Assembly: GCF_008274585.1 (NCBI RefSeq)
Contig: NZ_VTRT01000004.1
Coordinates: 1-64,000, forward strand
Length of the DNA stretch: 64,000 nucleotides
Origin: Pedobacter sp. BS3
GTDB lineage: Bacteria; Bacteroidota; Bacteroidia; Sphingobacteriales; Sphingobacteriaceae
Direction: 5' to 3'
Made by a program: the position numbers and the translations under genes
Part shown: positions 238 to 18,293 of the stretch, piece after piece
Numbering within the stretch: position 1 is the first letter of the stretch
Layout of the letters: every line of letters begins with the position of its first letter
The notes under the pieces: model-generated
Database searches by the model: none
What the model was told of the DNA's origin: nothing
What the model saw: only the letters and a program-made list of their open reading frames with translations

Positions 238-1851
238 ATGATACTATACAGGCGTTTACTGCTTCTTTTTTTACTAATATATAGTCCTTTTATAAGCCGT
301 TCACAAAGTAATGACTCGCCAAAACCAAACTGGCAGAATCTTGATCTTTCTCAGGATGGTGTTTTTGGTATCAGCACGGAAAAAGCCTATGAAACCTTGT
401 TAAAAGGTAAGAAAAGTAAAACGGTGATCGTTGCCGTAATAGATGGCGGTGTGGATGTAAATCACGAAGATTTAAAGAATATGATCTGGGTTAATCCGAA
501 AGAGGTTGCAAACGATGGTAAGGATAACGATAAGAATGGATATATAGATGATATTCATGGCTGGAACTTTATTGGTTCTGCTAAAGGCGATGTTCATTAT
601 GACAACCTGGAAATGACCCGCCTGGTTCGGAAGCTACAGCCTAAGTATGCCAGTGTGCTCAACTCAACTCCTCTTACTCCGGAAGAACGGAAAGAATTCG
701 GTGAATACAAAAAGATAGTTACCGAATACATGGATAAGCTACAGAACGCACAGTTGGGCGAGGCCAATATTTCTGCTTTAAAAAAGTATAGCGATGAAAT
801 TAAAGCTAAGATCGGTAAAGATGAGCCAACACTGGCAGATTTTGAGGCTTATACGCCGGCGAATGATCTGCAATCAAAAGCATTAAAAGTAATCAAGTCA
901 TCTTTAAAGAAAGACCCGAGCTATAAGAAATTCGAGGAAGATCTGAATGATGCCTACAAATATTACACTGCAGAGGTAAATTATCATCTCAACATGGATT
1001 TTGATCCGCGGGATGCCGTGGGAGATAATTACGATGATAAGCTGGAACGCTATTACGGTAATAACGATGTAAAAGGCCCCGATGCCATGCATGGTACACA
1101 TGTGGCCGGAATTATTGGCGCCGTACGCACCAACAACATCGGGATAAAAGGCGTTGCAGATAATGTGAAAATTATGTGCGTACGCACTGTTCCGGATGGT
1201 GACGAGCGGGATAAGGATGTTGCCAATGCCATTCGTTATGCTGTAGATAACGGGGCAAAAGTGATCAACATGAGTTTCGGTAAGTCCTATTCTCCCGATA
1301 AGGCCGTGGTTGATTCGGCGGTGAAGTATGCCGTATCGAAAGACGTGTTATTAGTGCATGCGGCGGGTAATGACACAAAAAATACCGATAAGGAATCTAA
1401 CTATCCTAACCGTAACTACCTGGATACGGCCGGTGTGGTGAAGGGAACAGTAAATGATTGGATCGAAGTAGGCGCCAGTAGCTGGAAGAATGATGACAGC
1501 TTAGTTGCCGGATTTTCTAACTATGGGAAACGGGCGGTAGACGTTTTTGCACCCGGTGTAAAAATTAACTCTACTATTCCCGATTCAAAATATAAAGAAC
1601 TGGAAGGAACCAGCATGGCCTCGCCGGTAGTAGCCGGATTAGCAGCGCTCATTCGGTCGTATTATCCAAAGCTCAGCGCAGCACAGGTTAAAGATATTAT
1701 CTTGAAATCGGTAGTGAAAGTTGATCATAAGGTTAAGGTTTCTATAGATGGTAGCAATCAGCGGGTAAACTTCTCTGATCTGTGTACTTCCGGCGGAATT
1801 GTTAATGCCTATAATGCCTTATTGCTGGCATCAAAAACCAAACCGGAGTAA
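238..1851 (+). CDS. Secreted S8 family serine peptidase (subtilase)
   Basis: This is an exported subtilisin-fold protease of 537 residues. A signal peptide covers about residues 1-24. The catalytic triad is visible: Asp69 in VIDGGVD, His285 in HGTHVAG and Ser459 in GTSMASP. The spacing between Asp and His is about 215 residues, whereas classical subtilisins have 30-40. The extra segment (about residues 115-275) is charged and predicted helical. There is no obvious T9SS sorting domain at the C-terminus, so the product is probably periplasmic or released by another route. It is transcribed alone behind the rRNA operon and converges on the phosphoesterase operon. The substrate is unknown. Confidence 0.92.
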   Translation: MILYRRLLLLFLLIYSPFISRSQSNDSPKPNWQNLDLSQDGVFGISTEKAYETLLKGKKSKTVIVAVIDGGVDVNHEDLKNMIWVNPKEVANDGKDNDKNGYIDDIHGWNFIGSAKGDVHYDNLEMTRLVRKLQPKYASVLNSTPLTPEERKEFGEYKKIVTEYMDKLQNAQLGEANISALKKYSDEIKAKIGKDEPTLADFEAYTPANDLQSKALKVIKSSLKKDPSYKKFEEDLNDAYKYYTAEVNYHLNMDFDPRDAVGDNYDDKLERYYGNNDVKGPDAMHGTHVAGIIGAVRTNNIGIKGVADNVKIMCVRTVPDGDERDKDVANAIRYAVDNGAKVINMSFGKSYSPDKAVVDSAVKYAVSKDVLLVHAAGNDTKNTDKESNYPNRNYLDTAGVVKGTVNDWIEVGASSWKNDDSLVAGFSNYGKRAVDVFAPGVKINSTIPDSKYKELEGTSMASPVVAGLAALIRSYYPKLSAAQVKDIILKSVVKVDHKVKVSIDGSNQRVNFSDLCTSGGIVNAYNALLLASKTKPE

Positions 1852-2099: not shown

Positions 2100-5000
2100 T
2101 TAAAACCAGATGCCGGCTTTCACATTGATATATTTGCCTTCATTTGAGATACCATAAGATCCGGAGAGAATAAATAATTTGTACAGGTTTAGCCAGAGGC
2201 CAGGGCCATATCCCGAATGCCATTTGGCAGATTCGGGTACATCGCTGTAAACTCTTCCCGAATCAAAAAAGCCGAATATGCCGATGTTGCCGCTTAACAG
2301 GTAATTCCTGAAATCTGTTACCGGAAAACGCAGTTCGGCATTCTCATATAAATAGCTCCGGCCAGAGAACCGGTAATTGCGGTATCCCCTGAGGTTGGTA
2401 TTTCCGCCAAGTGCATTTGCCTGAAAGAATTTATAATTGCCAATATTGCCGGTACCGCCTAAACGAAGCGCTGCCGTTACCGGGAATTGAAAGTTTGGTG
2501 TAAAATAAAAGGATACAGCGCTTTTTAGCTGCAGGAAATGATTGTTGCTATGGCCTAATCCATGAAAATAGTTCACTTCATTGAGCCATTTTACGCCTGA
2601 GCCCGGAAACTGTGGATTATCCGTTACATCTAAAATAGCGTAATAACGACCAGTTAAGTATCGATGAGCGGATCCAACATCAGCTTTGTCGGGGAAAGTT
2701 TGAGCATTAACAAATCTGTTTGGCGTATTGATGATGTTAATATAATCAAATCCCGGCCCTATGCCCATACTAAAGGCTTTATTGAACCGGTATTGAATAT
2801 AAGGCGATATACTGAAATTTTTGGAGCGTACCCGGTAAAATAGATTGGGATCGCCGGGATTAGCCGTAGAATTTCCCTCGCCGTAATAGTTAAACACATT
2901 TTTAGGCCCGTTTAAATGCGCATTGATAACCAGATCGGTATTCTGGCCAAAGAGGGAATAGAATAGACTACTACCTTCTATCACATAAGATGCATTTTTC
3001 AGGGAGATCAATCCTTTCAGCTTATGGATTGCAACATAGGGTTTATCCCTGAAACCATATTTTTTATAATTGTAGCCCAGGCCAAGTATCAGGCCGTCAT
3101 CCTGGTTTAAATCGGCATCAGGAAGAATTGATGTCGCGTTGTACGAAAACGGATTAGTGGAATACTCAATAATATTCCGGTTGCTGGTTTTTACAATGCG
3201 GGTATCTGCTGTTTTCTGCAACGCCAGGTCTGCCGATTTTGAGGTGTAGACCATCATCCTGTTTTTATTTTCGGAAGTGATGATCTTACTCTTACCATCG
3301 CCGTCAACAATACGCACCTTAACGGGATGTGTATCAGAATACCCCTTAATAATAATGCTGTCTTTTCCTTTAAGCGGATAAATGTTCAATTGTGCGGTTT
3401 GCCGGTTTAGGAATGTCCGGTTATAAATTTCCCGGTCAACGTTTCTGTGCTTATCGATTTTATTTACGGTTAACTGCGTGGTACTGTCAGACCGGGTAAT
3501 TGTAAATAATTCATTTTTGTCCGTACCGGCAACAGTAACCTCGCGGGCTAAAATGTTATAATATATTTCCGCTACTTTATCCAACCCGTTCCGGCGTGAT
3601 TTCAGTTTCGTGATCAGTTCTTCGCCGGATAACCGGAATGCTTCTGCGGGCATTTTATGAACAGCATTACTGATCACTTCATCGGTGAGTTTGGTTTGCA
3701 TATCCCGGCTGATACGCTGCCAGTCTTCAAGTGATAATTTGTTCAGAAAGTTGCGGTCGAGGTTTCGGGCGGCAATGGACAGCTTAGCAGGATCTTTGAT
3801 CTCCGTTTCAAACGATTGCAGATCCGGAACAACATGGCTCATTAATCCGGGTAAAATGCCATCGTACTTTGCAAATGCCTGGTCTCTGTCGCGGGGTATC
3901 GGACGGTATATTGAACCTTTCTCCTTTTTAAATTCGGCCCAACGCCACTGATCTTCGTGCCGGTCCCAATCGCCAATCAGCATATCAAATAACCGGCATC
4001 GTAAAAACATTTCCTGGTCAACCTCGTCATCATTGTCATCCTGAAGCTTTTCGTACAGTTTGGGTGTTCCGATAGCGTTTTTGGCATTGCCGAATGAGTT
4101 GAAATCGGAAACATCTTCGTCCGGGCGGGCTTCGATATAGCCCAATTTACCCCCAACCTGTTGTATATAAGGACCCAGCAAAGGACTGTAAGGCATGTAT
4201 ACCAGCTTGGGTTCCGCATAGTAAATGCCGATTGCTTTTGCCATGTCGGGGATAATAAGCGCTCCATACGGGTGGGCTGACGATATCTGGTCTTGCATCA
4301 GGTCATCGGCAAATGTTTTACGTAAGCCCTCTGGTAAAAGCTGGGCCGGGTCTTTTTCAATCGAGCGGAACTGGTAAACATTGCCATCTTTTCCCTGCAA
4401 TTGTAAAGAAGTGGTTTGATGGCCGCCGCCCATTTTAATGGGAGTAAGTCCACCGGCATAAGTGCTTAAATCGAGGTAAGGTACATTCACCGGAGCCGCC
4501 CAAACATCACGATAGTGCTTGCCGAGCCAGCGTTGTTTGGCTTTGCCGGCTTTATATTCCTTGCCGGGCGCTAAAATTTTGGAACTGTCTGCATAGTTGA
4601 TGCTTTTTTCCTGTGCTATAGCCGTGGCTTTTTGTGGCGGTATGGCATACAGCGGAGCCCGGAATACCAGCTTGCCATCAGCGCCATCGCCAACAGGCTG
4701 CCAGAACTCTACCCAGCATTCGCCATTGTCGTAATAATTTAACCGTGAAAATCCTTTGGTGCCATAAGCGAATAAAGCGCCGTTGCCGTGAACTACATTG
4801 TTTGATTTGCTGCCGGCGCCACTAACAATATGGTTAATGGAACCGTAACGGTTTAGCTGTAAGGCATGCTCGTGGCCAGCCGCTATAACTATGCTTTTTT
4901 CGTCCTGCAAAGCGGCCAGTAATCCGCGTTTTAACTGCTGGTATTTTTTATTGGAAATATCCTGCCGTGAAACGCCATATTGACGCAGGAGCGGATAGAC

Positions 5001-5831
5001 GGAGCCTATTACAGGTAATGGAATATACAGGTTATCGCGAACCAGCGTTAAGGGAAATATCCAGTCTTTAACACTGAAATGTCCGCCGTGTATGCCGTTG
5101 CTGAACAAAGGGTGATGTTCCGCAAGCAGGATGTTTTTGCCTTTATTGCGTCGTACAATATCTTTTACCTGGTTAATAATGTCAATTGGCGTGGTTGCTG
5201 TGCAGTCTGTAGGTTTCTGTTGCTTGCTTAGCCACCATTCGCTGTCAAGAATAATGACTACAAGGTTATCATTTACCGCTAATTCTACCGGGCCGGGACA
5301 TCCGTTGAGCGGAAGAAAAACGTTTGGCTTATTGTTAAGGTAATTGGTGATAAATTCCTGCTCCCGAAGTACCGCTTCAAGACCTCCCGCCCGGCTTTCA
5401 TTCCAGTCATGGTTGCCCGGAATAAAAATAACCTGTCCGCCGAAATTTTTCACAGCGTCCATTTGAGCTACAATGCGACGTTCTTTCTCTTTACGGTCGG
5501 GCGCATTGGGTTCGGGCATGCCGGTTTCGTAAATGTTATCGCCCAAAAACAGTACTAAATTTTTATTCGCTGATTTTGCCTCCTGGCTTACCGAATCGCT
5601 ATAGCTAAGCTGATGCTGCAATAACTTTAATGTTGGCTCTTGTCTGCCTGCATCCGGATTACCGGCATCGCCGATAAGGAAAACAGAATATTTCAGATGA
5701 AGACTATCCGGGGGAACGGCCTGCTGCTGCCAGTGTTTATGGTTTTTATCATAATAGGGCTTCCGGCTGGCACAGGCACAGCATAGGCTGAGAAAAATGA
5801 TAACGATACAGCGGAGGGTATTACTACTCAT
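2100..5831 (-). CDS. Metallophosphoesterase / kinase-like / outer-membrane barrel fusion lipoprotein
   Basis: This 1243-residue protein has three parts. Residues ~1-22 form a lipoprotein-type signal with a Cys-rich lipobox (SLCCAC). Residues ~45-370 carry the calcineurin-like phosphoesterase motifs in order: GDAG, GDNIY, GNHDWN, EHHPLF and GHEH. Residues ~440-800 contain VYQFRSIEKDP, then GDWDRHEDQW and PRDRDQAF, which resemble the catalytic and metal-binding loops of atypical kinases such as the HipA, FAM20 and CotH groups; that likeness is my reading. From ~880 to the terminal Phe, repeated aromatic strands look like a BamA/surface-antigen barrel. Its start overlaps the upstream gene by 8 bases, so the two are probably translationally coupled. 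A phosphate-processing role at the outer membrane is inferred. Confidence 0.85.
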   Translation of the reverse strand: MSSNTLRCIVIIFLSLCCACASRKPYYDKNHKHWQQQAVPPDSLHLKYSVFLIGDAGNPDAGRQEPTLKLLQHQLSYSDSVSQEAKSANKNLVLFLGDNIYETGMPEPNAPDRKEKERRIVAQMDAVKNFGGQVIFIPGNHDWNESRAGGLEAVLREQEFITNYLNNKPNVFLPLNGCPGPVELAVNDNLVVIILDSEWWLSKQQKPTDCTATTPIDIINQVKDIVRRNKGKNILLAEHHPLFSNGIHGGHFSVKDWIFPLTLVRDNLYIPLPVIGSVYPLLRQYGVSRQDISNKKYQQLKRGLLAALQDEKSIVIAAGHEHALQLNRYGSINHIVSGAGSKSNNVVHGNGALFAYGTKGFSRLNYYDNGECWVEFWQPVGDGADGKLVFRAPLYAIPPQKATAIAQEKSINYADSSKILAPGKEYKAGKAKQRWLGKHYRDVWAAPVNVPYLDLSTYAGGLTPIKMGGGHQTTSLQLQGKDGNVYQFRSIEKDPAQLLPEGLRKTFADDLMQDQISSAHPYGALIIPDMAKAIGIYYAEPKLVYMPYSPLLGPYIQQVGGKLGYIEARPDEDVSDFNSFGNAKNAIGTPKLYEKLQDDNDDEVDQEMFLRCRLFDMLIGDWDRHEDQWRWAEFKKEKGSIYRPIPRDRDQAFAKYDGILPGLMSHVVPDLQSFETEIKDPAKLSIAARNLDRNFLNKLSLEDWQRISRDMQTKLTDEVISNAVHKMPAEAFRLSGEELITKLKSRRNGLDKVAEIYYNILAREVTVAGTDKNELFTITRSDSTTQLTVNKIDKHRNVDREIYNRTFLNRQTAQLNIYPLKGKDSIIIKGYSDTHPVKVRIVDGDGKSKIITSENKNRMMVYTSKSADLALQKTADTRIVKTSNRNIIEYSTNPFSYNATSILPDADLNQDDGLILGLGYNYKKYGFRDKPYVAIHKLKGLISLKNASYVIEGSSLFYSLFGQNTDLVINAHLNGPKNVFNYYGEGNSTANPGDPNLFYRVRSKNFSISPYIQYRFNKAFSMGIGPGFDYINIINTPNRFVNAQTFPDKADVGSAHRYLTGRYYAILDVTDNPQFPGSGVKWLNEVNYFHGLGHSNNHFLQLKSAVSFYFTPNFQFPVTAALRLGGTGNIGNYKFFQANALGGNTNLRGYRNYRFSGRSYLYENAELRFPVTDFRNYLLSGNIGIFGFFDSGRVYSDVPESAKWHSGYGPGLWLNLYKLFILSGSYGISNEGKYINVKAGIWF

Positions 5832-6747
5832 AGGCTATTTCAATAATATTTGCCGGATGCTTGTTGCCTTCATTAGAAATAAATAATCTTCCGTCTGAAG
5901 TAAACGCAATTCCTTCGGGCTGGCTAAATTCTTTGCCTGACAGTTTTATAATCTGATTGATGGTTCCATCGGGTTTCATTACTGCAATAATATTGTTAAT
6001 GGAAGACAATATGAAAAGCTGCTGGGTCTCAGGATGTACTGCCAGCGCTGATGTACGGAAAATCTTGTTCATATTTTCATTGCCCAGGGCCTTCAGGAAT
6101 TTTTTAGAAGCCTCTTCCAAACCGTCGCCTTTAAAAAAGGCGGCAATTTTATCCAGATCGATAGTATGTATCGGCGTAGTATTAACCTGATGCTGGGGCA
6201 GGCTGATCTCATAAACATCTTTTAATTCTTTCTTACCGGCAACCAGTCCCTTATCTTTCGGAGCAATTAACAGCCGGTTGCTGGCTCTATCGTATGTAAG
6301 TCCTTCAATATTGTTTTCATCGTTAAACGGAGTTTTAACCTCGGTGATCTCACTGTTGAACTTGCGAAAATCTTTAATCTGGTACAGCTTGCCATTGCTT
6401 TTTACCACGTAAATATCGTTGCCAACTACCGTCAAATCTTCATAATCGCCATCATTGGCAAAGGTTTTGGTGCCTGTAATTTTTTTGTCTTTGAGGTTAT
6501 AGAAGTAAATTATTCCGTTTTCGTCCTCAACCGCGGCAATAGTAATACTGTCAATGAACGCGATGCCTGATATCTCTTTTAGCTCGGCAGGCATTTCATA
6601 AAGCTGTAAAATACGGGCTTCTTTTACAGCGCTGTTGCTTTTGCCGGCGAATATATCCTGTTTGGTATCCTTGTTTTTAGATTTGCTGCGAACGCAGGCC
6701 CAACTGAGCAATATTGCCATCAGCAAAAAAGTAAAGAGTCTGTTCAT
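5824..6747 (-). CDS. SdiA-regulated family lipoprotein (YjiK-like beta-propeller)
   Basis: The product is 307 residues with a lipoprotein signal ending in LSWAC. The body shows propeller-like repeats typical of the SdiA-regulated family: KEISGIAFIDS, DYEDLTVVGNDIYVV, NNIEGLTYD and QPEGIAFTSDGRLFISNE, the last being an NHL-like strand. No catalytic residues can be assigned. Its stop codon lies inside the start region of the phosphoesterase fusion gene, an 8-base overlap that suggests co-translation and a shared function at the envelope. Members of this family resemble phytase-type propellers, so a phosphoester ligand is possible but only inferred. Confidence 0.82.
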   Translation of the reverse strand: MNRLFTFLLMAILLSWACVRSKSKNKDTKQDIFAGKSNSAVKEARILQLYEMPAELKEISGIAFIDSITIAAVEDENGIIYFYNLKDKKITGTKTFANDGDYEDLTVVGNDIYVVKSNGKLYQIKDFRKFNSEITEVKTPFNDENNIEGLTYDRASNRLLIAPKDKGLVAGKKELKDVYEISLPQHQVNTTPIHTIDLDKIAAFFKGDGLEEASKKFLKALGNENMNKIFRTSALAVHPETQQLFILSSINNIIAVMKPDGTINQIIKLSGKEFSQPEGIAFTSDGRLFISNEGNKHPANIIEIAYE

Positions 6748-6942: not shown

Positions 6943-9351
6943 CTATTTGGCATTTTTAACATACTTCTCCAGCCATTCATTTTGTTCCCAGAGCATGTGC
7001 AGCAGGTTTTCTTTGCCACGGTAGCTGTGAGCTTCGTATGGTAGAAAAACAAAACGGACAATACCGCCATTTCCTTTTATGGCATTAAATAAACGTTCGC
7101 TGTTAATAGGGAATGTACCCGGATTATCGTCAGCATCACCATGGATTAAAAGGAGGGGCGTTTTTATTTTATCAGCATAGCTGAATGGACTCATTTCATA
7201 ATAGAGTTGGGGAGCTTCCCAATAGGTACGGTCTTCGTTCTGGAACCCAAACGGTGTTAATGTACGGTTGTAGGCGCCGCTTCTTGCTATTCCGGCTTTA
7301 AACAGGCTGGTGTGGGCCAGTAAGTTGGCGGTCATAAATGCGCCATAGCTGTGTCCGCCAATGGCCATTCGGTTTTTATCGCCAACGCCAAGCTCTGATA
7401 GTTTGTTAATGGCCGCTTCGGCATTTAACCGCAGCTGTTCAACAAAGGTATCGTTGGGTTTTTTGTTATCTTTTGCCACAATAGGCATTTCAGCATTATC
7501 CAGAACGGCATATCCCTGGGTTACCCAGAAAATGGGTGAGGCCCAGCTGATGGTGGTAAACCGGTATTTTGAGCCTCTGACCTGTGCCGCATCAGCCGCC
7601 GAATGAAATTCTCGGGGATAGGCCCATATCAGCGTGGGAAGGGGGCCATCTTTTTCTTTGGAATAACCTTTGGGCAAATACAGGTTCCCGGTCAGGTCAA
7701 CGCTATCGGTACGTTTGTATGAGATCTTTTGCCTGGTAACGCCTGCCAGTTGTGGATAAGGATTAGCAAAATCTGTTATAGGTTTGCCGGCTGCTCTTGA
7801 GCTTAAAGCCTTGATATAATAGTTGGGTACTTCGGTTTGCGATTCCTTCCTGGTAAGCAATACCAGTTTTTTAGGATCGATCACCTCGCTTACATACTCG
7901 TAATATCCTTCGGCACAACGCCACAGGATAGTATTTTTTTTAGTTTTTAAGTCAAACTTTGCCAGAAACGGAAGATCTCCCTTGGGCGAGGCGCCTGTAG
8001 TATTGTTCATTAGCAGCTTAGTATTGTTGTCGAGTGTTAAAATGACGTATCTGCCAAATTGATTTTTGGTTTTTACAGGCTCTCCCGGATCATGATAAGC
8101 ATCGGTGGTGTTACCTTCATAAAGTGTTTCGAGTTTGCCTGTTGAAGGATTATAGCGGCTAACGGTATACGTTTGTTTGCTTTGCAGTCCTTCTTCAACC
8201 AACGCAAGCGAGGCATTACCCCATTGAGTTCCACGGTAGCGGGTTGTAGTTTTAAATAGCTCTTTGGGTGGGCCTGTAAATGGGGCGGATAAAGCATAAA
8301 CCACATCATGGAACGGAACTTTTTGTTTTATCAGCCCGCTGTCTAAAGGCTGGCACCAGGTAATTGTTGCCGGTTCGTCATCACGCCAGTCGAAGCTGCG
8401 GGGTATATTCTGAACATTATCATATCCCGATGGTTTGCTTTCTGCAGAAGGAAGACGGGCCAGTGTTTTAACCGTCTTGCCGTTTATATCGGCTATGCTT
8501 ACCACCGATGAGAACCCGTAAGCGGTAACCAGGTATGAAAATGGTTTTTGAAGGGTGCGTATAAGCAAATAATTTTTATCCGGCGATAAGGTTACCGAAG
8601 AATACATAGCCGGATCGCCAATTTTTGTCTCGATGCCATTTTTGTTTTGCACCAGTTGCGATGTAGCGTAAAATTCAAATAACTGCTCGTCGTAAGGGTT
8701 TTTGATCAGATCCTGGTACGTTCTGCTCGGAGCGGCCTTGCCCAGGTTTTGCTGGATAGCAGGGCCTTGGGGTACCGGCGGCCTTGCCGGAGCTTCCGAA
8801 GCATCTTTTATCACGGTTCTGTATATCAGCGTGTTATCGTCTATCCACGAAATGCCGCTGCTTAAAACTATGTTTAGCGGTTGTTTATTTATCCGCGTGG
8901 CGGTATGGGCAGCCACATCAATAATATACAGGTCAACCCTGTTCCGGCTTGTATTGATAAAAGCTATTTTAGTTTCAGACGGGCTCCAGCTAATATTTCC
9001 TGCATACAGGGGCGAGGGAAGCCCGGTTACCTGGAATACGTTATTGCTTTTTATGTTTTTTAGCGAAAAGTTATTGATAAAGGTTTGCCGGCTGGGAGCA
9101 AAATTGCCGGGATTGATACGCAGGCCGGCAATCCGGTATTCGGGCCGGGCCAGTTCTTCAACCGAAGGATAAGAATTACGCTCACACAGCAACAGCCATT
9201 CGGCCTTGCTGCCCACGCTGATCGAGGGGGTGGGCGGTGCAAGTAACAGATCGGCAATAACCTTTGGAGGCATTTGATAATTAACTGCATCCTGGGCAAA
9301 TAAGCAGCTAAAAAAAAGCAGGAGAAATGTTGATAATATTGTTTTTTTCAT
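6943..9351 (-). CDS. Secreted S9 family peptidase (glutamyl endopeptidase-like prolyl oligopeptidase fold)
   Basis: This is an 802-residue exported serine peptidase. It has a signal peptide (~1-19), an N-terminal propeller-like region (~60-540) and a C-terminal alpha/beta-hydrolase domain. The nucleophile is Ser668 in GGHSYGA. The acid is probably Asp741 in HGDADDNPGTF and the base His775 in EAHSYRG. The HGDADDNPGTF stretch and the sequence around the nucleophile resemble the S9 branch related to plant glutamyl endopeptidase, so cleavage after Glu is possible but inferred. It is transcribed alone on the minus strand, with a hairpin downstream and a 453-base non-coding region upstream. Confidence 0.92.
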   Translation of the reverse strand: MKKTILSTFLLLFFSCLFAQDAVNYQMPPKVIADLLLAPPTPSISVGSKAEWLLLCERNSYPSVEELARPEYRIAGLRINPGNFAPSRQTFINNFSLKNIKSNNVFQVTGLPSPLYAGNISWSPSETKIAFINTSRNRVDLYIIDVAAHTATRINKQPLNIVLSSGISWIDDNTLIYRTVIKDASEAPARPPVPQGPAIQQNLGKAAPSRTYQDLIKNPYDEQLFEFYATSQLVQNKNGIETKIGDPAMYSSVTLSPDKNYLLIRTLQKPFSYLVTAYGFSSVVSIADINGKTVKTLARLPSAESKPSGYDNVQNIPRSFDWRDDEPATITWCQPLDSGLIKQKVPFHDVVYALSAPFTGPPKELFKTTTRYRGTQWGNASLALVEEGLQSKQTYTVSRYNPSTGKLETLYEGNTTDAYHDPGEPVKTKNQFGRYVILTLDNNTKLLMNNTTGASPKGDLPFLAKFDLKTKKNTILWRCAEGYYEYVSEVIDPKKLVLLTRKESQTEVPNYYIKALSSRAAGKPITDFANPYPQLAGVTRQKISYKRTDSVDLTGNLYLPKGYSKEKDGPLPTLIWAYPREFHSAADAAQVRGSKYRFTTISWASPIFWVTQGYAVLDNAEMPIVAKDNKKPNDTFVEQLRLNAEAAINKLSELGVGDKNRMAIGGHSYGAFMTANLLAHTSLFKAGIARSGAYNRTLTPFGFQNEDRTYWEAPQLYYEMSPFSYADKIKTPLLLIHGDADDNPGTFPINSERLFNAIKGNGGIVRFVFLPYEAHSYRGKENLLHMLWEQNEWLEKYVKNAK

Positions 9352-9804: not shown

Positions 9805-10392
9805 ATGGGAGTTTATAATTTAACATTTGAAAAAAAACTCCTTGAACAGATTGCAGCAGGTGATCAGGCTGCATTTAAGCTTGTTTTTGATACCTATAAA
9901 GGCAAGATCTACACCTTTGTACTCAGCTTCATCCACTCGCCGGTAGATGCAGAAGAAATTGTACAGGAGGCTTTTGTATCGTTATGGCAACAGCGGGATA
10001 AGCTGCTTGCGGTTGAGCATCCCAGAAATTATATCTACACCCTGGTGCGCAATAAAACCCTGCGTTATATTGATAATGTTATACGGGATGAAAAAGCCCA
10101 GCGGGTGATCTGGGCCAATATGCAAATGGAGGTTAATTATACGCAGGAGGCCATAGAATTCCAGGAAAGTATGCGGTTAATTAACCAGGCCTTATCCATG
10201 CTGCCCGAGCAGAAGCAGAAAATTTTTAGAATGTGCCGTAACGAGGGGCTAAGTCATGAAGAGATAGCGGCACAAACCGGGCTCTCCAAAAGCCGGGTTA
10301 AAAACATCATGGTAGAGGTGTTAAAGTATCTTAAAGTCTTCATTGCAGATTCAGCAAAGCTGTTAGTCATCCTGCTGTTGAAATTTTTTTAA
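9805..10392 (+). CDS. ECF RNA polymerase sigma factor, FecI-like
   Basis: The 195-residue product has a sigma region 2 (about residues 24-65, with DAEEIVQEAFVSLWQQR) and a region 4 helix-turn-helix (about 133-177, LPEQKQKIF...HEEIAAQTGLSKSRVKNIM). There is no region 3, as is typical of extracytoplasmic-function sigma factors. It heads a run with the FecR-like anti-sigma gene and an STN-bearing SusC, the standard trans-envelope surface-signalling arrangement. Occupancy of the receptor would release this sigma factor to transcribe the SusC/SusD operon. A GAGGTT stretch 6-11 bases before the ATG may serve as a weak ribosome-binding site. Confidence 0.93.
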   Translation: MGVYNLTFEKKLLEQIAAGDQAAFKLVFDTYKGKIYTFVLSFIHSPVDAEEIVQEAFVSLWQQRDKLLAVEHPRNYIYTLVRNKTLRYIDNVIRDEKAQRVIWANMQMEVNYTQEAIEFQESMRLINQALSMLPEQKQKIFRMCRNEGLSHEEIAAQTGLSKSRVKNIMVEVLKYLKVFIADSAKLLVILLLKFF

Positions 10393-10478
10393 AAATATTT
10401 TCCTGCACCCGGTCCTTTCCCTAAGGTTATGTAACTATAAAAAACAGGTACATCAACGCAAGTTGTTATAGCGCAATT

Positions 10479-11678
10479 ATGGATACACAACAGGAAAGGT
10501 TTACATTTCTTTTAGACAGGTATTTGAAGAAAGCATCGACCCTGGATGAACTGCGGGAGTTTTTTTCGTTGCTTAAACAGCAAAGGTTCAGGGACGAGTT
10601 TGAAGCTGCAATGAAAAACGGTTTTGATGCTGCCGTTCCCTGTGCCGAAGTGCATGCTGTTGACTGGGATGAAATGTACGCCAGCATCATATCTCAACCA
10701 CATAAAACCGTGAAACCCGTATGGGGTAATTGGGCCAGGGTAGCAGCCGTGCTCCTGGTAATATGCGCTACATCCATAGTATTATGGCGTGTAAGGCAAA
10801 ACACCGGACCGGTGAAAAAAGATATGGCCTCTGTACAAACGGATATAGAACCCAGTAATAAAAAAGCGATACTCCGTTTAGACAATGGGCAAACTATTAT
10901 GCTTGATGGTAAGGGGGTGCTGGAGAGCCGGGGCGGAAACAAGGTCAGGAAAACAGCTTTAGGGATACAACTTTATTTTGATAACACTGCAGATAACAAG
11001 TTGGCCGAAGTGCATACCGTTACGTTAACCACGGCTACAGGAGGGCAGTATATGCTTATTTTGCCCGATAACAGTAAGGTGTGGTTAAATGCCAACTCTT
11101 CCATTTCATTCCCGTCGGCTTTTACCGGCAATGAACGCGATGTAGAGGTTAGGGGCGAGGCCTATTTTGAGGTTAGTAAAGATAAGGAGCATCCTTTCAG
11201 GGTAAAAAGCGGTAATTCTACTGTTACCGTTCTGGGAACACATTTTAATGTTATGACCTATGATGATGAGCCAAGGTCGGAAGTTGCCCTTGCCGAGGGT
11301 TCTGTCAGGTTAGATCTGGGTACAAGTTCATGTGTTCTTAAGCCCGGGCAGCAGGCATCGTTCAGTAACCGGTCCGATCATATCAGGATCAGCCCGGTTA
11401 GTATAGAGGATATTGCCGGGTGGAAAGACGGGTTATTCCAGTTTGATAATACGCCGGTAACACAGGTAATGCGCCAGCTACAAAGGTGGTATGATGTAAA
11501 AGTGGCCTACGAAGGTGGCCAGCCCGACATTGCAATTACTGCGATGATATCCAAAACCAACAAGATCTCTAAGATACTTGATCTGCTTACTGAATCCAGC
11601 GGATTAACTTTCGAAGTAAAAAATAAGATAGTCACAGTAAAATCACAAGCACGAAGGGAGGCCGGAATGAAAAAATAA
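10479..11678 (+). CDS. FecR family anti-sigma factor
   Basis: A 399-residue single-pass membrane protein. The cytoplasmic N-terminus (~1-80) would bind the sigma factor. One transmembrane segment lies near residues 85-105 (WARVAAVLLVICATSIVLW). The periplasmic FecR domain (~180-300) includes LPDNSKVWLNANSSISFPSAF and GEAYFEV, and the C-terminal DUF4974-type domain (~315-390) includes FDNTPVTQVMRQLQRWYDVKV. It follows the sigma gene by 86 bases and precedes the SusC gene, whose STN domain is the expected periplasmic partner. Confidence 0.93.
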   Translation: MDTQQERFTFLLDRYLKKASTLDELREFFSLLKQQRFRDEFEAAMKNGFDAAVPCAEVHAVDWDEMYASIISQPHKTVKPVWGNWARVAAVLLVICATSIVLWRVRQNTGPVKKDMASVQTDIEPSNKKAILRLDNGQTIMLDGKGVLESRGGNKVRKTALGIQLYFDNTADNKLAEVHTVTLTTATGGQYMLILPDNSKVWLNANSSISFPSAFTGNERDVEVRGEAYFEVSKDKEHPFRVKSGNSTVTVLGTHFNVMTYDDEPRSEVALAEGSVRLDLGTSSCVLKPGQQASFSNRSDHIRISPVSIEDIAGWKDGLFQFDNTPVTQVMRQLQRWYDVKVAYEGGQPDIAITAMISKTNKISKILDLLTESSGLTFEVKNKIVTVKSQARREAGMKK

Positions 11679-11862
11679 ATACATGGAAGCAATAGCGCTT
11701 TGCCTTATCATGAACCGATGAGCATGACATAGGCTGATCTATAAAACAGGAGCAAGTAATAAAAAACAAAGGGAGCGCTGGCACGCCCCCCTGAACAATT
11801 TGAGCCTGTTTACCTACAAGCAATTAACGGCATAATAAACTTTAACTCAAACAGTCAAATGT

Positions 11863-14800
11863 ATGAAAATTTACACGCATTGTAAATGTGGCTTACGGTA
11901 CAATAAACCAAACAAAACACTGCTGATTATGAAATTAACCCTTGTTTTTATGGTCGCGGTATTCTTACAGGCGCATGCCATAGGATATGCCCAAAAGGTG
12001 ACCATTTCAAAGGAAAATACCAGCTTAAGAGACCTGTTCAAAGAAATAAGAAAACAGACCGGCTACGATTTCATTTTTAATAGTGAAGTAATTAACGAAA
12101 AAGGCTTATTCTCCGTACAGGTAAAGAACAAAGATCTTTCAGAAATGCTTACAGACCTGTTAGCGCCAAGTCATCTTACGTTCTCCATTAAAGATAAAAA
12201 TATTATTGTAAAGCAGGCTTCGTATGTACAGCCCGATCGTGTTATTTCGGGTAGAGTGGTTTCAGAGAGCGATGGTTTGCCGCTGCCGGGCGTTTCTGTT
12301 AAAATAAAGGGAACCCTTACCGGAACGTCTACCAATGCTAACGGGGAGTTTAGCATCCGGGTATCAGATAACGATGTGCTGGTGATCACCATGATCGGTT
12401 TTAAAACCAAAGAAGTGCTAACTGCAAATGTAAACACGTTTAACATTAAGCTGGCAGAAGAATCTAAGGCCCTGTCTGAAGTGGTTATTACAGGGTATCA
12501 GAATATCGAGAAAAAACTGTTTACCGGGGCCGCCACAAGTATTAAAGGTGCCGATGTAAAGCAAGACGGTGTTGTAGATATAAGCCGTATGCTGGAAGGC
12601 AAGGTAGCCGGGGTATCGGTACAAAATGTTTCAGGAACATTTGGCACGGCTCCTAAGATACGCGTTCGTGGGGCAACATCCATTTCCGGCGAGAATAAGC
12701 CCTTGTGGGTAGTTGACGGCGTGGTGCTTGAAGATATAGTCAATATATCGAACGATCAGCTTTCGAGTGGCGATGCCCTTACCCTGATCGGCTCATCGGT
12801 TGCCGGTATCAATGCCAATGATATTGAGAGCCTAAATATCCTGAAAGATGCCTCGGCAACTGCCTTATACGGTGCAAGGGCCATGAATGGTGTAGTAGTT
12901 ATTACCACTAAAAAAGGCCGTTCAGGTAATACCCAGATCAACTATAACGGAAATTATTCTACATTTCTTAAGCCCGACTACAGTACCTACAACATCATGA
13001 ACTCTGCAGACCAGATGTCTTTATATGCAGAAATTTATCGTAAAGGCGGGTTAACAGCAAATATTGTAAATGGAAGAGACGGAGGCGTATTTGCCAAAAT
13101 GTACCAGGAAATTAACCGTTACGATGCTACTACCGGCCAGTTTGGTGTAGAAAACACGCCCGAGGCCAGGGCCGCATTTTTGCAGCGTTATGCCAGGGCC
13201 AATACCGACTGGTTTGGCTTACTTTTCAGAAATTCATTTGTGCAGGAACACTCGCTAAGTATTACATCAGGTTCTGAAAAATCACAGCATTATTTCTCTA
13301 TGGGATATTATGATGACAACGGGTGGTCTATTGCAGATAAAGTTAAACGCTATACCATGAACCTGCGGGGAAACTATAACGTGTCTCCTAAAATAAACGC
13401 CGGTATACTGGCAACAGGGGCCTTCAGGCAGCAGCGGGCTCCCGGTACGCTGGGCAGAACAAGCAATGTGGTAGAAGGTAAATACACCCGCGATTTTGAT
13501 ATAAACCCCTTTAGCTATGCCCTGAATACCAGCCGTACCATGACCGCCTACGATGAAAATGGTAACCTGGAATATTTTACCCTGAACTATGCCCCCTTTA
13601 ACATCATCAATGAACTGAACAATAACTACATTGACCTGGATATGCTGGATATGAAGCTTCAGGGAGAGCTCAGCTATAAATTTATTAAAGATTTCCAGTT
13701 CAGGTCGCTGGGCGCCATCCGTTACGTAAAAACCACGCGTGAGCATAAGATCACCGAATATTCTAACATGGCTACAGCATACCGGTATGCACCAAACAGT
13801 ACCATTGCCAATGCCAATATCTTCCTGTACGATGATCCCGATCACCCGGAAATTACCGACCGTGAAAGTGTATTGCCAAAGGGTGGCTTTTACAATCGTA
13901 ATGATGATAACCTGCTTAATTTCAATGTGCGCAACCAGGTTGACTGGAGCCATAAATACGGCAAAAATTATGTAAGCGGATTTATAGGGCAGGAAATAAA
14001 GTTTACTAACCGCCAGAACTCTTTTAACAACGGGTATGGTTACCAGTATGATAAAGGCGGTATTCCGTTTACAGATTATAGAATTATCAAGATGCTTTTA
14101 GAGGCAAACTATAATTATTACGGAATGAGCCAGCTTTATGACCGGTATGCGGCTTTTTTCCTGAACGGGCAGTATGCCTATAACTCGAAATATATATTTA
14201 ACGGAACGTTCAGGTACGATGGCAGTAACCGTATGGGCGAAAGCCGTACCGCAAGATGGTTGCCAACCTGGACAATAAGCGCTGCCTGGAATGCCGATGA
14301 AGAGCCGTTCATAAAGAAGATCAAACAGATAAGCTACCTTAAAATAAGGGCTGGTTATGGTTTAACGGCCAGCATGGGTAGTGCCACAAACTCTTCTGTT
14401 GTGCTTACCAACAGTACTACGCTGCGCCCTAACCTGTCTGAAGTTGAGCCCCGTATTGTGCTTAGCAACTTAGAGAACTCTGAGCTAACCTGGGAAAAGC
14501 AATATGAAGCTAATGCGGGTTTTGATATGGGATTGTTAAACAGCCGCTTAACACTCAGTGTAGATTATTATAACCGCCGTGGTTTTGACCTGATCGGCGA
14601 TGTGCGAACATCGGGAATAGGAGGCGAATATACCAAAGCAGCTAACTATGCCGATATGAGATCGCATGGTATTGAATTTACAGTGGGAGGCACAGCCGTA
14701 AAATCGGCCAATTTTAGCTGGTCGCCGCAAATAACCTTTGGTTACAATACCAATAAAATAACCAACCTGAAAAGCACACCGCGTATTTATGATCTGATCA

Positions 14801-15489
14801 TCCCGGAAGGGGGAGCAAAAGAAGGCGGCGCTGTCCGCGGATTATACTCCATCAATTTTCAGAAACTACAGCAGGTTGGAGTGCCTACATTTATTGATGA
14901 GAACGGCGATATCTCAAGCAATGTATACGTACAAAGTGTAAACACAGATTACCTGATCTACGAGGGGCCGGTTGATCCTACCATTACAGGCGGATTTAAC
15001 AATAGCCTGAAGTATAAAAATTTTTCACTGTTGTTCAATATCAGCTACCAGGCCGGTAATAAGATCAGGCTGAACAATGTATACAGCACCAGTTACGACG
15101 ATGTGGATGCATTGCCCAGGGAATTTTTAAACCGGTGGACGCTTCCACTGGACGAAAATTATACCAACTCGCCTTCGCTGGCAGATTACCTGCTGAAAAA
15201 GGAATTGAAGGACATCTATCCGTATACAGCTTATAACTATTCGAGCGATCGTGTTGCCGATGGGTCTTTTGTCCGGTTAAAATCAGCAGCGCTGATGTAT
15301 AATTTCCCCGCCAAATTCACTAACCGTATTGGTTTACATACCGCCTCGCTTAAATTTCAGGGTAATAACATCTGGCTGATCTATGCAGATAAGAAGCTGA
15401 AAGGACAGGATCCCGAATTCTTTAGTTCTGGTGGAGTAGCCTTGCCTGTTCCGCGTCAGTTTACCTTAACGCTAAATGTTGGAATTTAA
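11863..15489 (+). CDS. SusC/RagA TonB-dependent receptor with STN signalling domain
   Basis: This 1208-residue outer-membrane transporter reads, in order: an N-terminal export region (~1-44), an STN secretin/TonB short domain (~48-125), a carboxypeptidase-regulatory-like beta domain (~128-205, ISGRVVSESDGLPLPGVSVKIKG), a plug (~215-335, with ILKDASATALYGARAMNGVVVITTKKG) and the barrel. The STN domain is what makes it a signalling receptor for the FecR protein encoded just upstream. The start at 11863 gives a long N-terminus; an internal Met at residue 23 (MKLTLVFMVAVFLQ) is an equally plausible start. SusD follows 12 bases after the stop. Confidence 0.95.
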   Translation: MKIYTHCKCGLRYNKPNKTLLIMKLTLVFMVAVFLQAHAIGYAQKVTISKENTSLRDLFKEIRKQTGYDFIFNSEVINEKGLFSVQVKNKDLSEMLTDLLAPSHLTFSIKDKNIIVKQASYVQPDRVISGRVVSESDGLPLPGVSVKIKGTLTGTSTNANGEFSIRVSDNDVLVITMIGFKTKEVLTANVNTFNIKLAEESKALSEVVITGYQNIEKKLFTGAATSIKGADVKQDGVVDISRMLEGKVAGVSVQNVSGTFGTAPKIRVRGATSISGENKPLWVVDGVVLEDIVNISNDQLSSGDALTLIGSSVAGINANDIESLNILKDASATALYGARAMNGVVVITTKKGRSGNTQINYNGNYSTFLKPDYSTYNIMNSADQMSLYAEIYRKGGLTANIVNGRDGGVFAKMYQEINRYDATTGQFGVENTPEARAAFLQRYARANTDWFGLLFRNSFVQEHSLSITSGSEKSQHYFSMGYYDDNGWSIADKVKRYTMNLRGNYNVSPKINAGILATGAFRQQRAPGTLGRTSNVVEGKYTRDFDINPFSYALNTSRTMTAYDENGNLEYFTLNYAPFNIINELNNNYIDLDMLDMKLQGELSYKFIKDFQFRSLGAIRYVKTTREHKITEYSNMATAYRYAPNSTIANANIFLYDDPDHPEITDRESVLPKGGFYNRNDDNLLNFNVRNQVDWSHKYGKNYVSGFIGQEIKFTNRQNSFNNGYGYQYDKGGIPFTDYRIIKMLLEANYNYYGMSQLYDRYAAFFLNGQYAYNSKYIFNGTFRYDGSNRMGESRTARWLPTWTISAAWNADEEPFIKKIKQISYLKIRAGYGLTASMGSATNSSVVLTNSTTLRPNLSEVEPRIVLSNLENSELTWEKQYEANAGFDMGLLNSRLTLSVDYYNRRGFDLIGDVRTSGIGGEYTKAANYADMRSHGIEFTVGGTAVKSANFSWSPQITFGYNTNKITNLKSTPRIYDLIIPEGGAKEGGAVRGLYSINFQKLQQVGVPTFIDENGDISSNVYVQSVNTDYLIYEGPVDPTITGGFNNSLKYKNFSLLFNISYQAGNKIRLNNVYSTSYDDVDALPREFLNRWTLPLDENYTNSPSLADYLLKKELKDIYPYTAYNYSSDRVADGSFVRLKSAALMYNFPAKFTNRIGLHTASLKFQGNNIWLIYADKKLKGQDPEFFSSGGVALPVPRQFTLTLNVGI

Positions 15490-15501
15490 AACTAAAAGAA
15501 A

Positions 15502-16956
15502 ATGAAAAAAACAGCGCTATATATTCTTGTCATCATGGCCTCTTTTAGTACAGGATGTGAAAAATATCTTGAACATGCGCCAGATCAGCGTACTAAATTA
15601 AATACGCCCGAAAAGGTATCTGAGCTATTGGTTACAGCCTATCCGTACGGAAGTTATATTTTACTTGCCGAGTCTATGTCAGACAATCCTTCATTTAACA
15701 GTACATCGGGCGATGACCGTGAAGTTATCCGTGAGGGTTATTTCTGGAGAGATATTTCAAGCACAGCACAAGATACCCCAACGTATTACTGGAACGGCTG
15801 CTATGACGCTATAGCAGCAGCCAACCAGGCCCTGGACGCCATCAGTAAGGCTCCCGATCCTGAAAATTATACGGCACAAAAAGGTGAGGCCCTGGTTGCA
15901 AGAGCCTACGCCCATTTTATGCTGGTAACATTTTATGCAAAAGTGTACGATCCTGAAACTGCAGCCACCGATCCGGGTATACCCTATGTGCTTACGCCAG
16001 AGTCGGTTGTGTTTAAGCGTTACGACCGTAAAACCGTGGCTTATGTATATGAGCAAATTGAAAAAGATCTGCTGGAAGGTATTCCCCTTATCCGGGATAA
16101 TAGTTACACCGTGCCGGCATATCATTTTACCAAAAAAGCTGCTTACGCCTTTGCCACACGTTTTTATCTCTTTAAAAGGCAGCCTGAAAAAGTGATAGAA
16201 TATGCTAACCTGGCTTATCCCGGTAACAATTTTGCAGCCAATGTAAGGCCGTGGTTATCGTATGCCGGTTTTGCCGGCTCAACAGAGATCAAGCAGGCCT
16301 TTACCAGTGCCAGTAATCCCGGTAATATTTTGCTGGGCGAAACAATTTCATGGGCGTCCAGGTATTATCCGCAAGCGATATATTCATTCTCACAAAACAG
16401 GTTAAACAGCATTACAGCCCCGGTAGGTGTGTCGTTCTCAGCTTACCGTAAATATTCATATTCCAGTACCTTTTACTATGTACCTAAGCTGTATGAGCAT
16501 TTTGTTCGTACCAGCATTAACGCTACTACCGGTAAAGGGTATAATATGATACCACTGTTAACAACCGAAGAAGTATTGATGAACCGGGCCGAAGCATATA
16601 TTATGCAGGGAAATTATAGCGATGCTTTAACTGATTTCAACACACTGATCAGCACCCGCGTAACAAATTACTCGCCAGGCACGCACAACCTTACCGATGC
16701 GAAGATAAAAAGTTATTATGCCTCAAAAACAGAAGATACCAAAGAGGCTTATACCATGGCTTTGCTGGATATTAAACGGGCAGAATTTATATCAGAAGGT
16801 ATGCGGTGGATGGATATACTGCGCCATAAGCTGCCGGTAACCCATATTATTGACCCGGATGGTCATTCCATTGAGTTAGGTGCCAATGATAACAGGCGGT
16901 TATGGCAGTTGCCGGCAGAAGTAGTATTATCTGGTGTTGCCCAGAATCCACGTTAA
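15502..16956 (+). CDS. SusD/RagB family nutrient-binding outer-membrane lipoprotein
   Basis: A 484-residue lipoprotein (signal ending in FSTGC). It has the alpha-helical TPR-like SusD fold: an early YWNGCYDAIAAANQALDAI helix, ARAYAHFMLVTFYAKVY, then EEVLMNRAEAYIMQGNYSDALTDFNTLI and IKRAEFISEGMRWMDILRH near the C-terminus. It pairs with the SusC encoded 12 bases upstream to form the lid of the transporter. Its neighbours suggest a peptide or protein-derived ligand rather than a glycan; that is inference. Confidence 0.94.
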   Translation: MKKTALYILVIMASFSTGCEKYLEHAPDQRTKLNTPEKVSELLVTAYPYGSYILLAESMSDNPSFNSTSGDDREVIREGYFWRDISSTAQDTPTYYWNGCYDAIAAANQALDAISKAPDPENYTAQKGEALVARAYAHFMLVTFYAKVYDPETAATDPGIPYVLTPESVVFKRYDRKTVAYVYEQIEKDLLEGIPLIRDNSYTVPAYHFTKKAAYAFATRFYLFKRQPEKVIEYANLAYPGNNFAANVRPWLSYAGFAGSTEIKQAFTSASNPGNILLGETISWASRYYPQAIYSFSQNRLNSITAPVGVSFSAYRKYSYSSTFYYVPKLYEHFVRTSINATTGKGYNMIPLLTTEEVLMNRAEAYIMQGNYSDALTDFNTLISTRVTNYSPGTHNLTDAKIKSYYASKTEDTKEAYTMALLDIKRAEFISEGMRWMDILRHKLPVTHIIDPDGHSIELGANDNRRLWQLPAEVVLSGVAQNPR

Positions 16957-16981
16957 TTATTAATCGTTAACTTAAATAGTA

Positions 16982-18283
16982 ATGAAAAGATTTAGCTTAA
17001 TATTCGCGGCAGTGGCCATACTGGTTTTTCATGGCTGTAAAAAAGATGAAAATCTTGATCGTGAAATAGTAGGCCTTGGCGGCGATACCTGGCCGCAAAC
17101 GCCGCTTGATGAATGGTTATATGCCAATTTTACCCAGCCTTACAATATTGGTGTCAAGTATCGCTGGGATGGTACAGAATATGATAACAGCAAAACCCTG
17201 GTGCCCCCAGAGGTATCAAGAGTACAACCGTTAATGGAATTGGTAAAAACAGCCTGGATCGATCCCTATGTTGATCAGGTTAATCCCGATTTTATTAAAA
17301 CATACGCTCCTAAAAACTATGTGTTGGTTGGCAGTTTACAATATAATGCAGGTGGTACGGTAACGCTGGGAGAGGCTGAGGGAGGCATCAAGGTTACATT
17401 ATATAATGTAAATAACTTTACAAACACTGATCGAGCAGTTTCCAAGCGTGTGCTTAAAACCATTCATCACGAATTTACACACATATTAAATCAAACCATT
17501 ATGTATCAGAAGGAGTTTCCTTACATTACTCCCACAGGATACACTGCAGATTGGAACAATAGTTCTGCTTATGCGGCAAATGGCTTTATTTCACAGTATT
17601 CGCAGGCATCTCCTGTAGAAGATTTTGCCGAGATGACCTCGATTATGCTTACAGAAGGGAAATTAGGTTACGAAACGCTCATAAAATCATATTCATCTAC
17701 AGCATTAGCTTCTGTCAGGAAAAAAGAAGAGCTGGTAATAACTTATTTTAAACAAGTTTGGGGAATTGATTTTTACGCACTGCAGAACCGGGTGCAGGCA
17801 GCTTTGAACAGCACCGCTCCCGAAGATATTACCGCCTATTTGGGAGCAGGCAAAATGTACACACTGCTAACGCCTAATACCACCATTGGTATGTCGGCAG
17901 ACTTCACACAAGTATATAATGCGACTAAAACCGGTTTATTTGGCTATGGGAGCCGGGTATTCAACAACTTTACCCTGGTTTATAGTAATGCCGGCCAGGT
18001 AATATTGCGGATAAATTATACCAACTCTTCCGGCTCAGTTTTAAATGCCAACTTTACGTACGATATAACAACCAATGCCAATGGTCGCTTTACGTTAACA
18101 TTAAACAGCCGGGATGGTAATGCCAACGGTATTGCCCCGTATGTTACGGCCCTGACCGATTATTTAACGCAAAACCAGTTCGTATACCGGTACTTCTACA
18201 GTAACGATTATGTGAACATGTACATAGGTTTGGCAAAAGCCAATGACAGCAGCTCATATTTTTACGGAACAGCAGGAAATTAA
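16982..18283 (+). CDS. Putative zinc-binding metallopeptidase lipoprotein of the SusC/SusD-associated (Peptidase_Mx1-like) type
   Basis: The product has 433 residues with a lipoprotein signal ending in HGC. A metallopeptidase motif HEFTH spans residues 163-167 (His163, Glu164, His167); a downstream EDFAEMTSIM segment may supply a third metal ligand. This architecture matches the substrate-import-associated zinc metallohydrolase lipoproteins that sit beside SusC/SusD pairs. The C-terminal ~135 residues are clearly related to the C-terminus of the next gene's product, sharing SADF, then a strand region, then YVTALTDY and the closing SSYFYG/SSFFYG. The gene is 25 bases after SusD and is surely in the same operon. 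Confidence 0.88.
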   Translation: MKRFSLIFAAVAILVFHGCKKDENLDREIVGLGGDTWPQTPLDEWLYANFTQPYNIGVKYRWDGTEYDNSKTLVPPEVSRVQPLMELVKTAWIDPYVDQVNPDFIKTYAPKNYVLVGSLQYNAGGTVTLGEAEGGIKVTLYNVNNFTNTDRAVSKRVLKTIHHEFTHILNQTIMYQKEFPYITPTGYTADWNNSSAYAANGFISQYSQASPVEDFAEMTSIMLTEGKLGYETLIKSYSSTALASVRKKEELVITYFKQVWGIDFYALQNRVQAALNSTAPEDITAYLGAGKMYTLLTPNTTIGMSADFTQVYNATKTGLFGYGSRVFNNFTLVYSNAGQVILRINYTNSSGSVLNANFTYDITTNANGRFTLTLNSRDGNANGIAPYVTALTDYLTQNQFVYRYFYSNDYVNMYIGLAKANDSSSYFYGTAGN

Positions 18284-18293
18284 ACAGGTTATT

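Follow-up and report, generated by a model that had tools for sequence, protein, structure and literature searches.

A purple-acid-phosphatase-like domain, a kinase-like domain and an Omp85 barrel in one exported protein of Pedobacter sp. BS3

The 'Metallo' subfamily of Omp85 proteins was defined on the pairing of PF00149 with the barrel and discussed as a metalloprotease group (Heinz and Lithgow 2014, PMC4104836). Its barrels are reported there to resemble barrels without an N-terminal extension, and the class is called conserved at the genus level only. Here, we describe a protein with a kinase-like domain between these two parts, encoded at positions 2100–5831 on the minus strand of a 64,000-nucleotide stretch of Pedobacter sp. 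BS3 (contig NZ_VTRT01000004.1, positions 1–64,000; hereafter the window). Assigned by its domain pair, it falls in the 'Metallo' subfamily, with PF00149 and Omp85 likewise in one chain; in contrast to the genus-level conservation stated in 2014, the three-part layout is spread over many families of the phylum. The terms 'kinase' and 'phosphatase' are absent from the main text of PMC4104836, and the kinase domain is therefore not described in that text; nor are a kinase or phosphatase mentioned in a 2025 paper on the Bacteroidota BAM (PMC12611786) and a paper on TamL (PMC12045153). In the openly licensed literature, we found no description of a kinase domain in this context. The phosphatase–barrel class was already noted in 2014; the kinase domain appears undescribed in this literature, and the 2014 metalloprotease annotation of the whole Omp85 class is corrected here.

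Three described kinases resemble the middle domain most closely. The spore-coat kinase CotH (5jd9), whose catalytic residue in B. subtilis is given as D228 in PMC7821199, shares the fold, aligns in its catalytic and double-Asp loops and gave the better profile of the two families compared. However, Pfam does not assign the window domain to CotH, and the window protein is exported and fused to a phosphatase and a barrel. Type II phosphatidylinositol 4-kinases (PI4KII) share the fold (Z 14.6–15.6), but the window domain has no PI3_PI4_kinase Pfam match. CtkA of Helicobacter pylori is the top match by both Foldseek and Protein Data Bank (PDB) profile search, with the catalytic loop aligned; it differs in a metal loop offset by one residue and in lacking a fused phosphatase or barrel.

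A parallel in mode of working comes from animals, where Fam20C has the pseudokinase partner Fam20A and phosphorylates osteopontin (PMC5865150), and where the purple acid phosphatase TRAP is active on osteopontin (PMC5486932). The likeness lies in an exported kinase, a partner copy without an active-site residue and a TRAP-like phosphatase; Fam20C and TRAP share osteopontin, and the window protein therefore joins enzymes that would resemble a known writer and eraser. By contrast, the fold match to Fam20A is weaker (Z 10.8), there is no Fam20C Pfam match, and the window kinase and phosphatase lie in one chain. The likeness would thus be one of working; membership of the Fam20 family is not claimed.

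Architecture of the exported protein

The gene encodes a 1243-residue exported protein in one open frame. Computation establishes its export signal, barrel and domain order, namely a lipoprotein-type signal, a purple-acid-phosphatase-like domain, a kinase-like middle domain and a 16-strand Omp85 barrel, with the following features.

5772–5831, minus strand: export signal, residues 1–20, in which Cys20 is the candidate site of lipid attachment (sequence)
4632–5699, minus strand: metallophosphoesterase domain, purple-acid-phosphatase-like, residues 45–400 (PF00149, TRAP sequence matches)
Within this domain: phosphatase motifs GDAG (residues 54–57), GDNIY (97–101), GNHDW (139–143), HHP (239–241) and GHEH (319–322)
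3507–4550, minus strand: kinase-like core, residues 428–775 (AlphaFold2 model; PI4KII, CotH and CtkA matches)
4404–4430, minus strand: Gly-rich loop GGGHQTTSL, residues 468–476 (conservation; start of the N-lobe sheet in the model)
4353–4367, minus strand: R489 and K493, two basic residues that are candidates for nucleotide binding (conservation, model)
3939–3974, minus strand: candidate catalytic loop GDWDRHEDQWRW, residues 620–631, with D623 the predicted catalytic Asp
3873–3902, minus strand: candidate metal loop PIPRDRDQAF, residues 644–653, with D648 and D650 (conservation, CotH alignment)
3273–3542, minus strand: beta-rich domain linking the kinase core to the barrel, residues 764–853 (model strands 351–440)
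2109–3137, minus strand: Omp85-type 16-strand barrel, residues 899–1241 (PF01103, model strands, BamA matches)
5824–6747, minus strand: upstream propeller gene, SdiA-regulated/phytase-like, exported (PF06977)

The preliminary description of this open reading frame had proposed the same three parts, and all were recovered. Pfam placed Metallophos (PF00149) at residues 51–258 (36.8 bits; cut-off 21.5) and Omp85 (PF01103) at residues 992–1228 (45.4 bits; cut-off 24). The domain between them had no Pfam match, whether the full protein or the domain alone was searched. An NCBIfam search of the protein named the barrel alone, with a score below the cut-off, and the full-length sequence had zero matches in the PDB. 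A pseudogene or frame artefact was rejected in view of the single open frame and its equal length in close relatives.

The phosphatase appears to be of the purple acid (TRAP) type, judging from its sequence. Residues 41–410 had TRAP entries 1ute (E 0.0054) and 7ov8 (E 0.0067) as their sole PDB sequence matches at E up to 1, and Plasmodium GAP50 (3tgh) was among the fold matches of the full model. All five motifs of the purple-acid-phosphatase set (GDxG, GDxxY, GNH(D/E), xxxH and GHxH) are present. The complete metal motifs claimed at the outset therefore hold for the window protein, but not for all of its kin: among 78 distinct three-part relatives, all five motifs occur in 52, four in 10 and no more than three in 16, counted with strict regular expressions under which four-motif cases may be intact. 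Proteins with a degraded phosphatase all retain the eight predicted kinase residues, although D621 and D623 are retained partly by selection in the named loci. The phosphatase thus seems, from these sequences, to be the more dispensable part. Many relatives lack it or carry a decayed version yet keep the kinase motifs, and we therefore regard the kinase as the core of the system.

An AlphaFold2 model of residues 45–1243 reached a predicted local distance difference test (pLDDT) of 85.9 and a predicted template modelling score (pTM) of 0.70, at which the placement of domains relative to each other is not trustworthy. It contains 16 long barrel strands, with BamA proteins as the best fold matches, which bears out the BamA-like barrel first proposed. 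The barrel includes the LRGY loop motif. POTRA domains gave no Pfam match in the window protein, and the corresponding region is occupied by the phosphatase and the kinase. At the N terminus, the window lipobox LCCAC is imperfect and was missed by the regular expression for lipoboxes; close relatives (for example L002, L051 and L052) have C-x-S-x-K-P-Y/F-Y/F after a hydrophobic stretch in the same place. With a threshold of 1.9 over 11 residues, an N-terminal hydrophobic segment was found in 130 of 132 kinase genes, the other two scoring 1.8. For comparison, such a segment was present in 0 of the 22 genes for polyphosphate kinase and in 3 of the 45 HD genes.

The kinase-like middle domain and its family

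We modelled residues 414–860 with AlphaFold2 from an alignment of 75 sequences, obtaining a confident structure (pLDDT 93.7, pTM 0.93) with a two-lobed kinase fold. Foldseek and VIA-align matches span model residues 1–349. Foldseek ranked CtkA first (E 6e-6) and PI4KIIalpha sixth (E 2e-5), with modest TM-scores of 0.3–0.5. In VIA-align, PI4KIIbeta (Z 15.6, 256 residues aligned, root-mean-square deviation (rmsd) 4.9) and CotH (Z 15.0, 252 aligned, rmsd 3.9) were followed by CtkA (Z 13.7, 235 aligned, rmsd 4.4), VPS34 (Z about 11.5), HipA (Z 11.2) and Fam20A (232 aligned, rmsd 4.9); 206 of 996 chains reached Z 8. These matches would place the domain in the protein-kinase-like (PKL) superfamily, in the branch of PI4KII, CotH, HipA and Fam20.

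Sequence comparison gave fainter signals. The best PDB profile match was CtkA, at an E value of 0.063 that is weak taken alone; its alignment set the predicted catalytic loop in register and the metal loop off by one residue. A Pfam scan of 36 family members at E up to 10, in which HMMER filters drop weak matches, listed 17 families. CotH (PF08757) was matched by two members (best E 0.012) and HipA_C (PF07804) by one (E 0.19), all below the curated cut-offs; PI3_PI4_kinase and Fam20C were not among the families listed. We then compared profiles directly with 24 CotH domains and 23 HipA domains, using 60 column shuffles and a reversed profile as controls. CotH scored 34.6 (probability 25%), a value reached by 0 of 60 shuffles (highest 26.0) and compared with 17.5 for the reversed profile. 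The alignment set D623 opposite the Asp of the corresponding CotH loop and D648/D650 opposite the conserved double-Asp loop. HipA scored 20.4, equalled by 1 of 60 shuffles, with a 36-row profile, and 23.4, with 0 of 60, with a 138-row profile; the predicted catalytic loop also aligned to the corresponding HipA loop. HipA as the nearest family was set aside, its profile match being weaker than that of CotH.

Conservation was assessed on 138 distinct domains from a search of the phylum with the whole domain as query, so that the motif played no part in selection. All eight predicted active-site residues are retained in 116 of them. Individually, D616 is kept in 136, D621 in 134, K493 in 131, E567 in 129, D648 in 127, D623 and R489 in 126 each, and D650 in 125; in the Gly-rich loop, G468 is kept in 125, G469 in 127 and Q472 in 121. 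R489 lies within a strand of the model and K493 immediately beyond it. The motifs singled out in the preliminary description, GDWDRHEDQW (residues 620–629), PRDRDQAF (646–653) and YQFRSIEKDP, stand where it had put them, and their conservation in this sample speaks against chance. Its kinase reading has likewise gained ground, through a predicted structure with kinase topology and matches to CotH, HipA and Fam20A, the CotH profile score above 60 of 60 shuffles, CtkA as top PDB profile match and the persistence of both Asp motifs. The kinase fold and Asp conservation are established computationally, and a chance motif or an absence of kinase topology was rejected on the model, the fold matches and this conservation. 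The domain is supported as kinase-like by fold and conservation, with a likely active site.

Among the 22 exceptions are a single truncated copy, copies that are clearly dead and a group lacking D623 alone. In the last group, the motif reads GDWSRR in L035 and L036 and GDWSRH in L088 and L094, with all else kept. Nine of the loci L001–L130 have two or three kinase genes; in five of these (L035, L036, L039, L088 and L094) an intact copy is accompanied by one without D623, and in the remaining four every copy is intact. L035 (4129–9148) and L036 (3436–6775) have two or three stand-alone kinase genes, tandem or divergent, one of them without D623, and in L039 (3452–8687) a strongly degenerate kinase–barrel gene immediately precedes an intact one in the same orientation. 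L048, L049, L192 and L210 retain D621 and D623, with the double-Asp metal loop changed to RHY or RQY. The scan that yielded L051–L130 used the pattern DWDR[HR]x[DGE]QW; D621–D623 counts there are biased and were excluded as evidence.

Searched alone, the middle domain matched in 113 of the 296 genomes sampled across the phylum and in 62 of 140 genera, with a single copy in the window's own genome. It constitutes a family of its own, exported and widespread in Bacteroidota, and apparently undescribed. Three layouts occur: phosphatase–kinase–barrel proteins of ~1250 residues, kinase–barrel proteins of ~880 residues, and kinases of ~430–590 residues with little else. The beta-rich linker domain was matched in the barrel forms and the ~530–590-residue forms, and not in the ~430-residue stand-alone kinases. 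A tree of 128 domains (78, 30 and 20 per layout), built by a quick method with strong support on 57 of 125 inner branches, requires at least eight layout changes; the phosphatase would have been added to the kinase in many lineages. The nearest named relatives of the window domain on the tree are Sphingobacteriaceae. A phage or plasmid origin was rejected, with zero phage matches and just five plasmid records, all non-mobilizable; four of these plasmid copies are labelled hypothetical protein and the fifth has no listed feature.

Location, proposed function and alternatives

The N-terminal part of Omp85 proteins, which in BamA is the POTRA region, lies in the periplasm. Because of this topology, and of a 16-strand barrel with both ends on one side, the soluble enzyme domains are probably periplasmic, and the cell-surface location given in the preliminary description is unlikely. 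Surface lipoproteins have an acidic run after the lipidated Cys as their export signal. Lipidation at the N terminus could suit such surface lipoproteins of the phylum, but the residues following Cys20 in the window protein argue otherwise, as they lack an acidic run. The N-terminal domains of BamA and TamA are periplasmic, and the stand-alone kinases include copies with an N-terminal membrane-spanning stretch alone. We therefore hold it very unlikely that the barrel secretes the enzyme part outward, a route that has been proposed for PlpD, an Omp85 protein of the patatin type said in PMC4104836 to carry its enzyme to the surface.

Our favoured explanation, which we consider probable while leaving substantial room for doubt, is a periplasm-facing kinase of the atypical superfamily and a purple-acid-like phosphatase, which a lipid and the Omp85 barrel tether to the outer membrane and which act on phosphate groups of the envelope. 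The kinase would transfer phosphate to an envelope substrate, be it protein, glycan or lipid; the phosphatase would dephosphorylate that substrate or a related one, or release phosphate for use; and the phytase-like propeller protein encoded upstream may be a partner or a substrate. This gives a testable function to genes labelled hypothetical protein. To our knowledge, enzymatic phosphorylation outside the bacterial cytoplasm has hardly been described, and it raises the question of where the phosphate donor comes from. For that question the family supplies named residues, laboratory-tractable hosts and natural controls in its dead copies. Several observations weigh against the proposal. Kinase–barrel forms exist without the phosphatase, which in some three-part members is degenerate; sequence matches to known kinases are weak; D623 is absent from some members; and we know of no established periplasmic ATP pool, which leaves a donor problem. 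In addition, the usual nucleotide-binding lysine of kinases, on the third N-lobe strand, is apparently replaced by Arg489, with Lys493 four residues further on.

This arginine, the loss of D623 in copies that keep all else and the fact that a common fold is no proof of function would also suit a kinase fold with another chemistry or none, such as a sensor of nucleotide, phosphate or polyphosphate, or AMP transfer, the phosphatase being the sole enzyme where intact. We consider this unlikely, as retention of eight residues in 116 domains goes beyond the usual need of a binding role and the degenerate copies often stand beside intact ones. A narrower form of our favoured explanation, a kinase for an envelope lipid or glycan (for example lipid A, a lipid head group or a cell-wall sugar) whose groups the phosphatase trims, is a possibility we take seriously without expecting it to hold. 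PI4KII is the best structural match, tied with CotH, and the barrel positions the soluble part on the periplasmic face of the outer membrane, but CotH, a protein kinase, lies within one Z unit, and its profile match is better than that of HipA in a comparison without PI4KII.

The gene neighbourhood bears on a further alternative, a phosphate-scavenging or polyphosphate module, with a kinase that consumes or produces polyphosphate and a phosphatase that frees phosphate for uptake. We sampled 80 named loci (L051–L130) with flanks of up to 6 kb, some ended by contig ends; neighbours were grouped as single-linkage clusters of open frames and assigned by Pfam on one representative each (three for the propeller). 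Polyphosphate kinase PPK1 is near the kinase gene in 23 loci and a His_Phos_1 phosphatase, presumably of the SixA type, in 17; in 28 loci a propeller homologue precedes the kinase gene in the same orientation, and each of these homologues has a hydrophobic N terminus. We estimate that a given gene would fall within 7 kb by chance in ~0.3% of genomes (14 kb of ~5 Mb). The positions and orientations of PPK1 and SixA vary: by family, PPK1 lies downstream in the opposite direction or upstream in the same direction, and the link was therefore probably kept or made more than once. These neighbours are a hint towards phosphate or polyphosphate. Nevertheless, related genomes do not provide independent neighbourhoods, and no linked transporter was seen in them. 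In the window's genome, moreover, the kinase gene is on contig C22, PPK1 on C21 and the HD-PycTM gene on C27, leaving the propeller as the sole one of these neighbours seen linked. We consider such a module improbable.

A broader extension of our favoured explanation is offered tentatively and with more doubt than confidence: exported kinases across the phylum may carry out reversible envelope phosphorylation, with writer, TRAP-like eraser and anchor on one chain, dead copies serving to activate and a phosphate donor from outside the cytoplasm, such as polyphosphate, as a bacterial counterpart of Fam20C, Fam20A and TRAP.

Genomic setting

The start of the 2100–5831 gene overlaps the end of the upstream propeller gene by 8 bases, and the propeller protein matches PF06977 with 39.8 bits (cut-off 21), making this gene a candidate operon partner. 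In the sampled loci, an HD-PycTM (Pycsar effector region) protein adjoins the kinase gene in 49 of 80 (for example L055:2224-4745), a nucleotide cyclase occurs in 22 and DUF2652 in 8, a conserved chromosomal setting for Pycsar-like parts. CotH-family genes lie a few kb from kinase–barrel genes of the family in two genomes (G019:C15:16534-17403 and G070:C10:23802-24674).

Within the window, the two-gene unit is flanked by a subtilase gene (238–1851, plus strand) and a prolyl-oligopeptidase-type S9 peptidase gene (6943–9351, minus strand). Further along, positions 9805–19610 (plus strand) encode an ECF sigma factor, a FecR anti-sigma factor, a TonB receptor with an STN domain, SusD, an Mx1 zinc peptidase and a DUF4302 protein, a row that resembles the regulated nutrient-uptake loci typical of this phylum.

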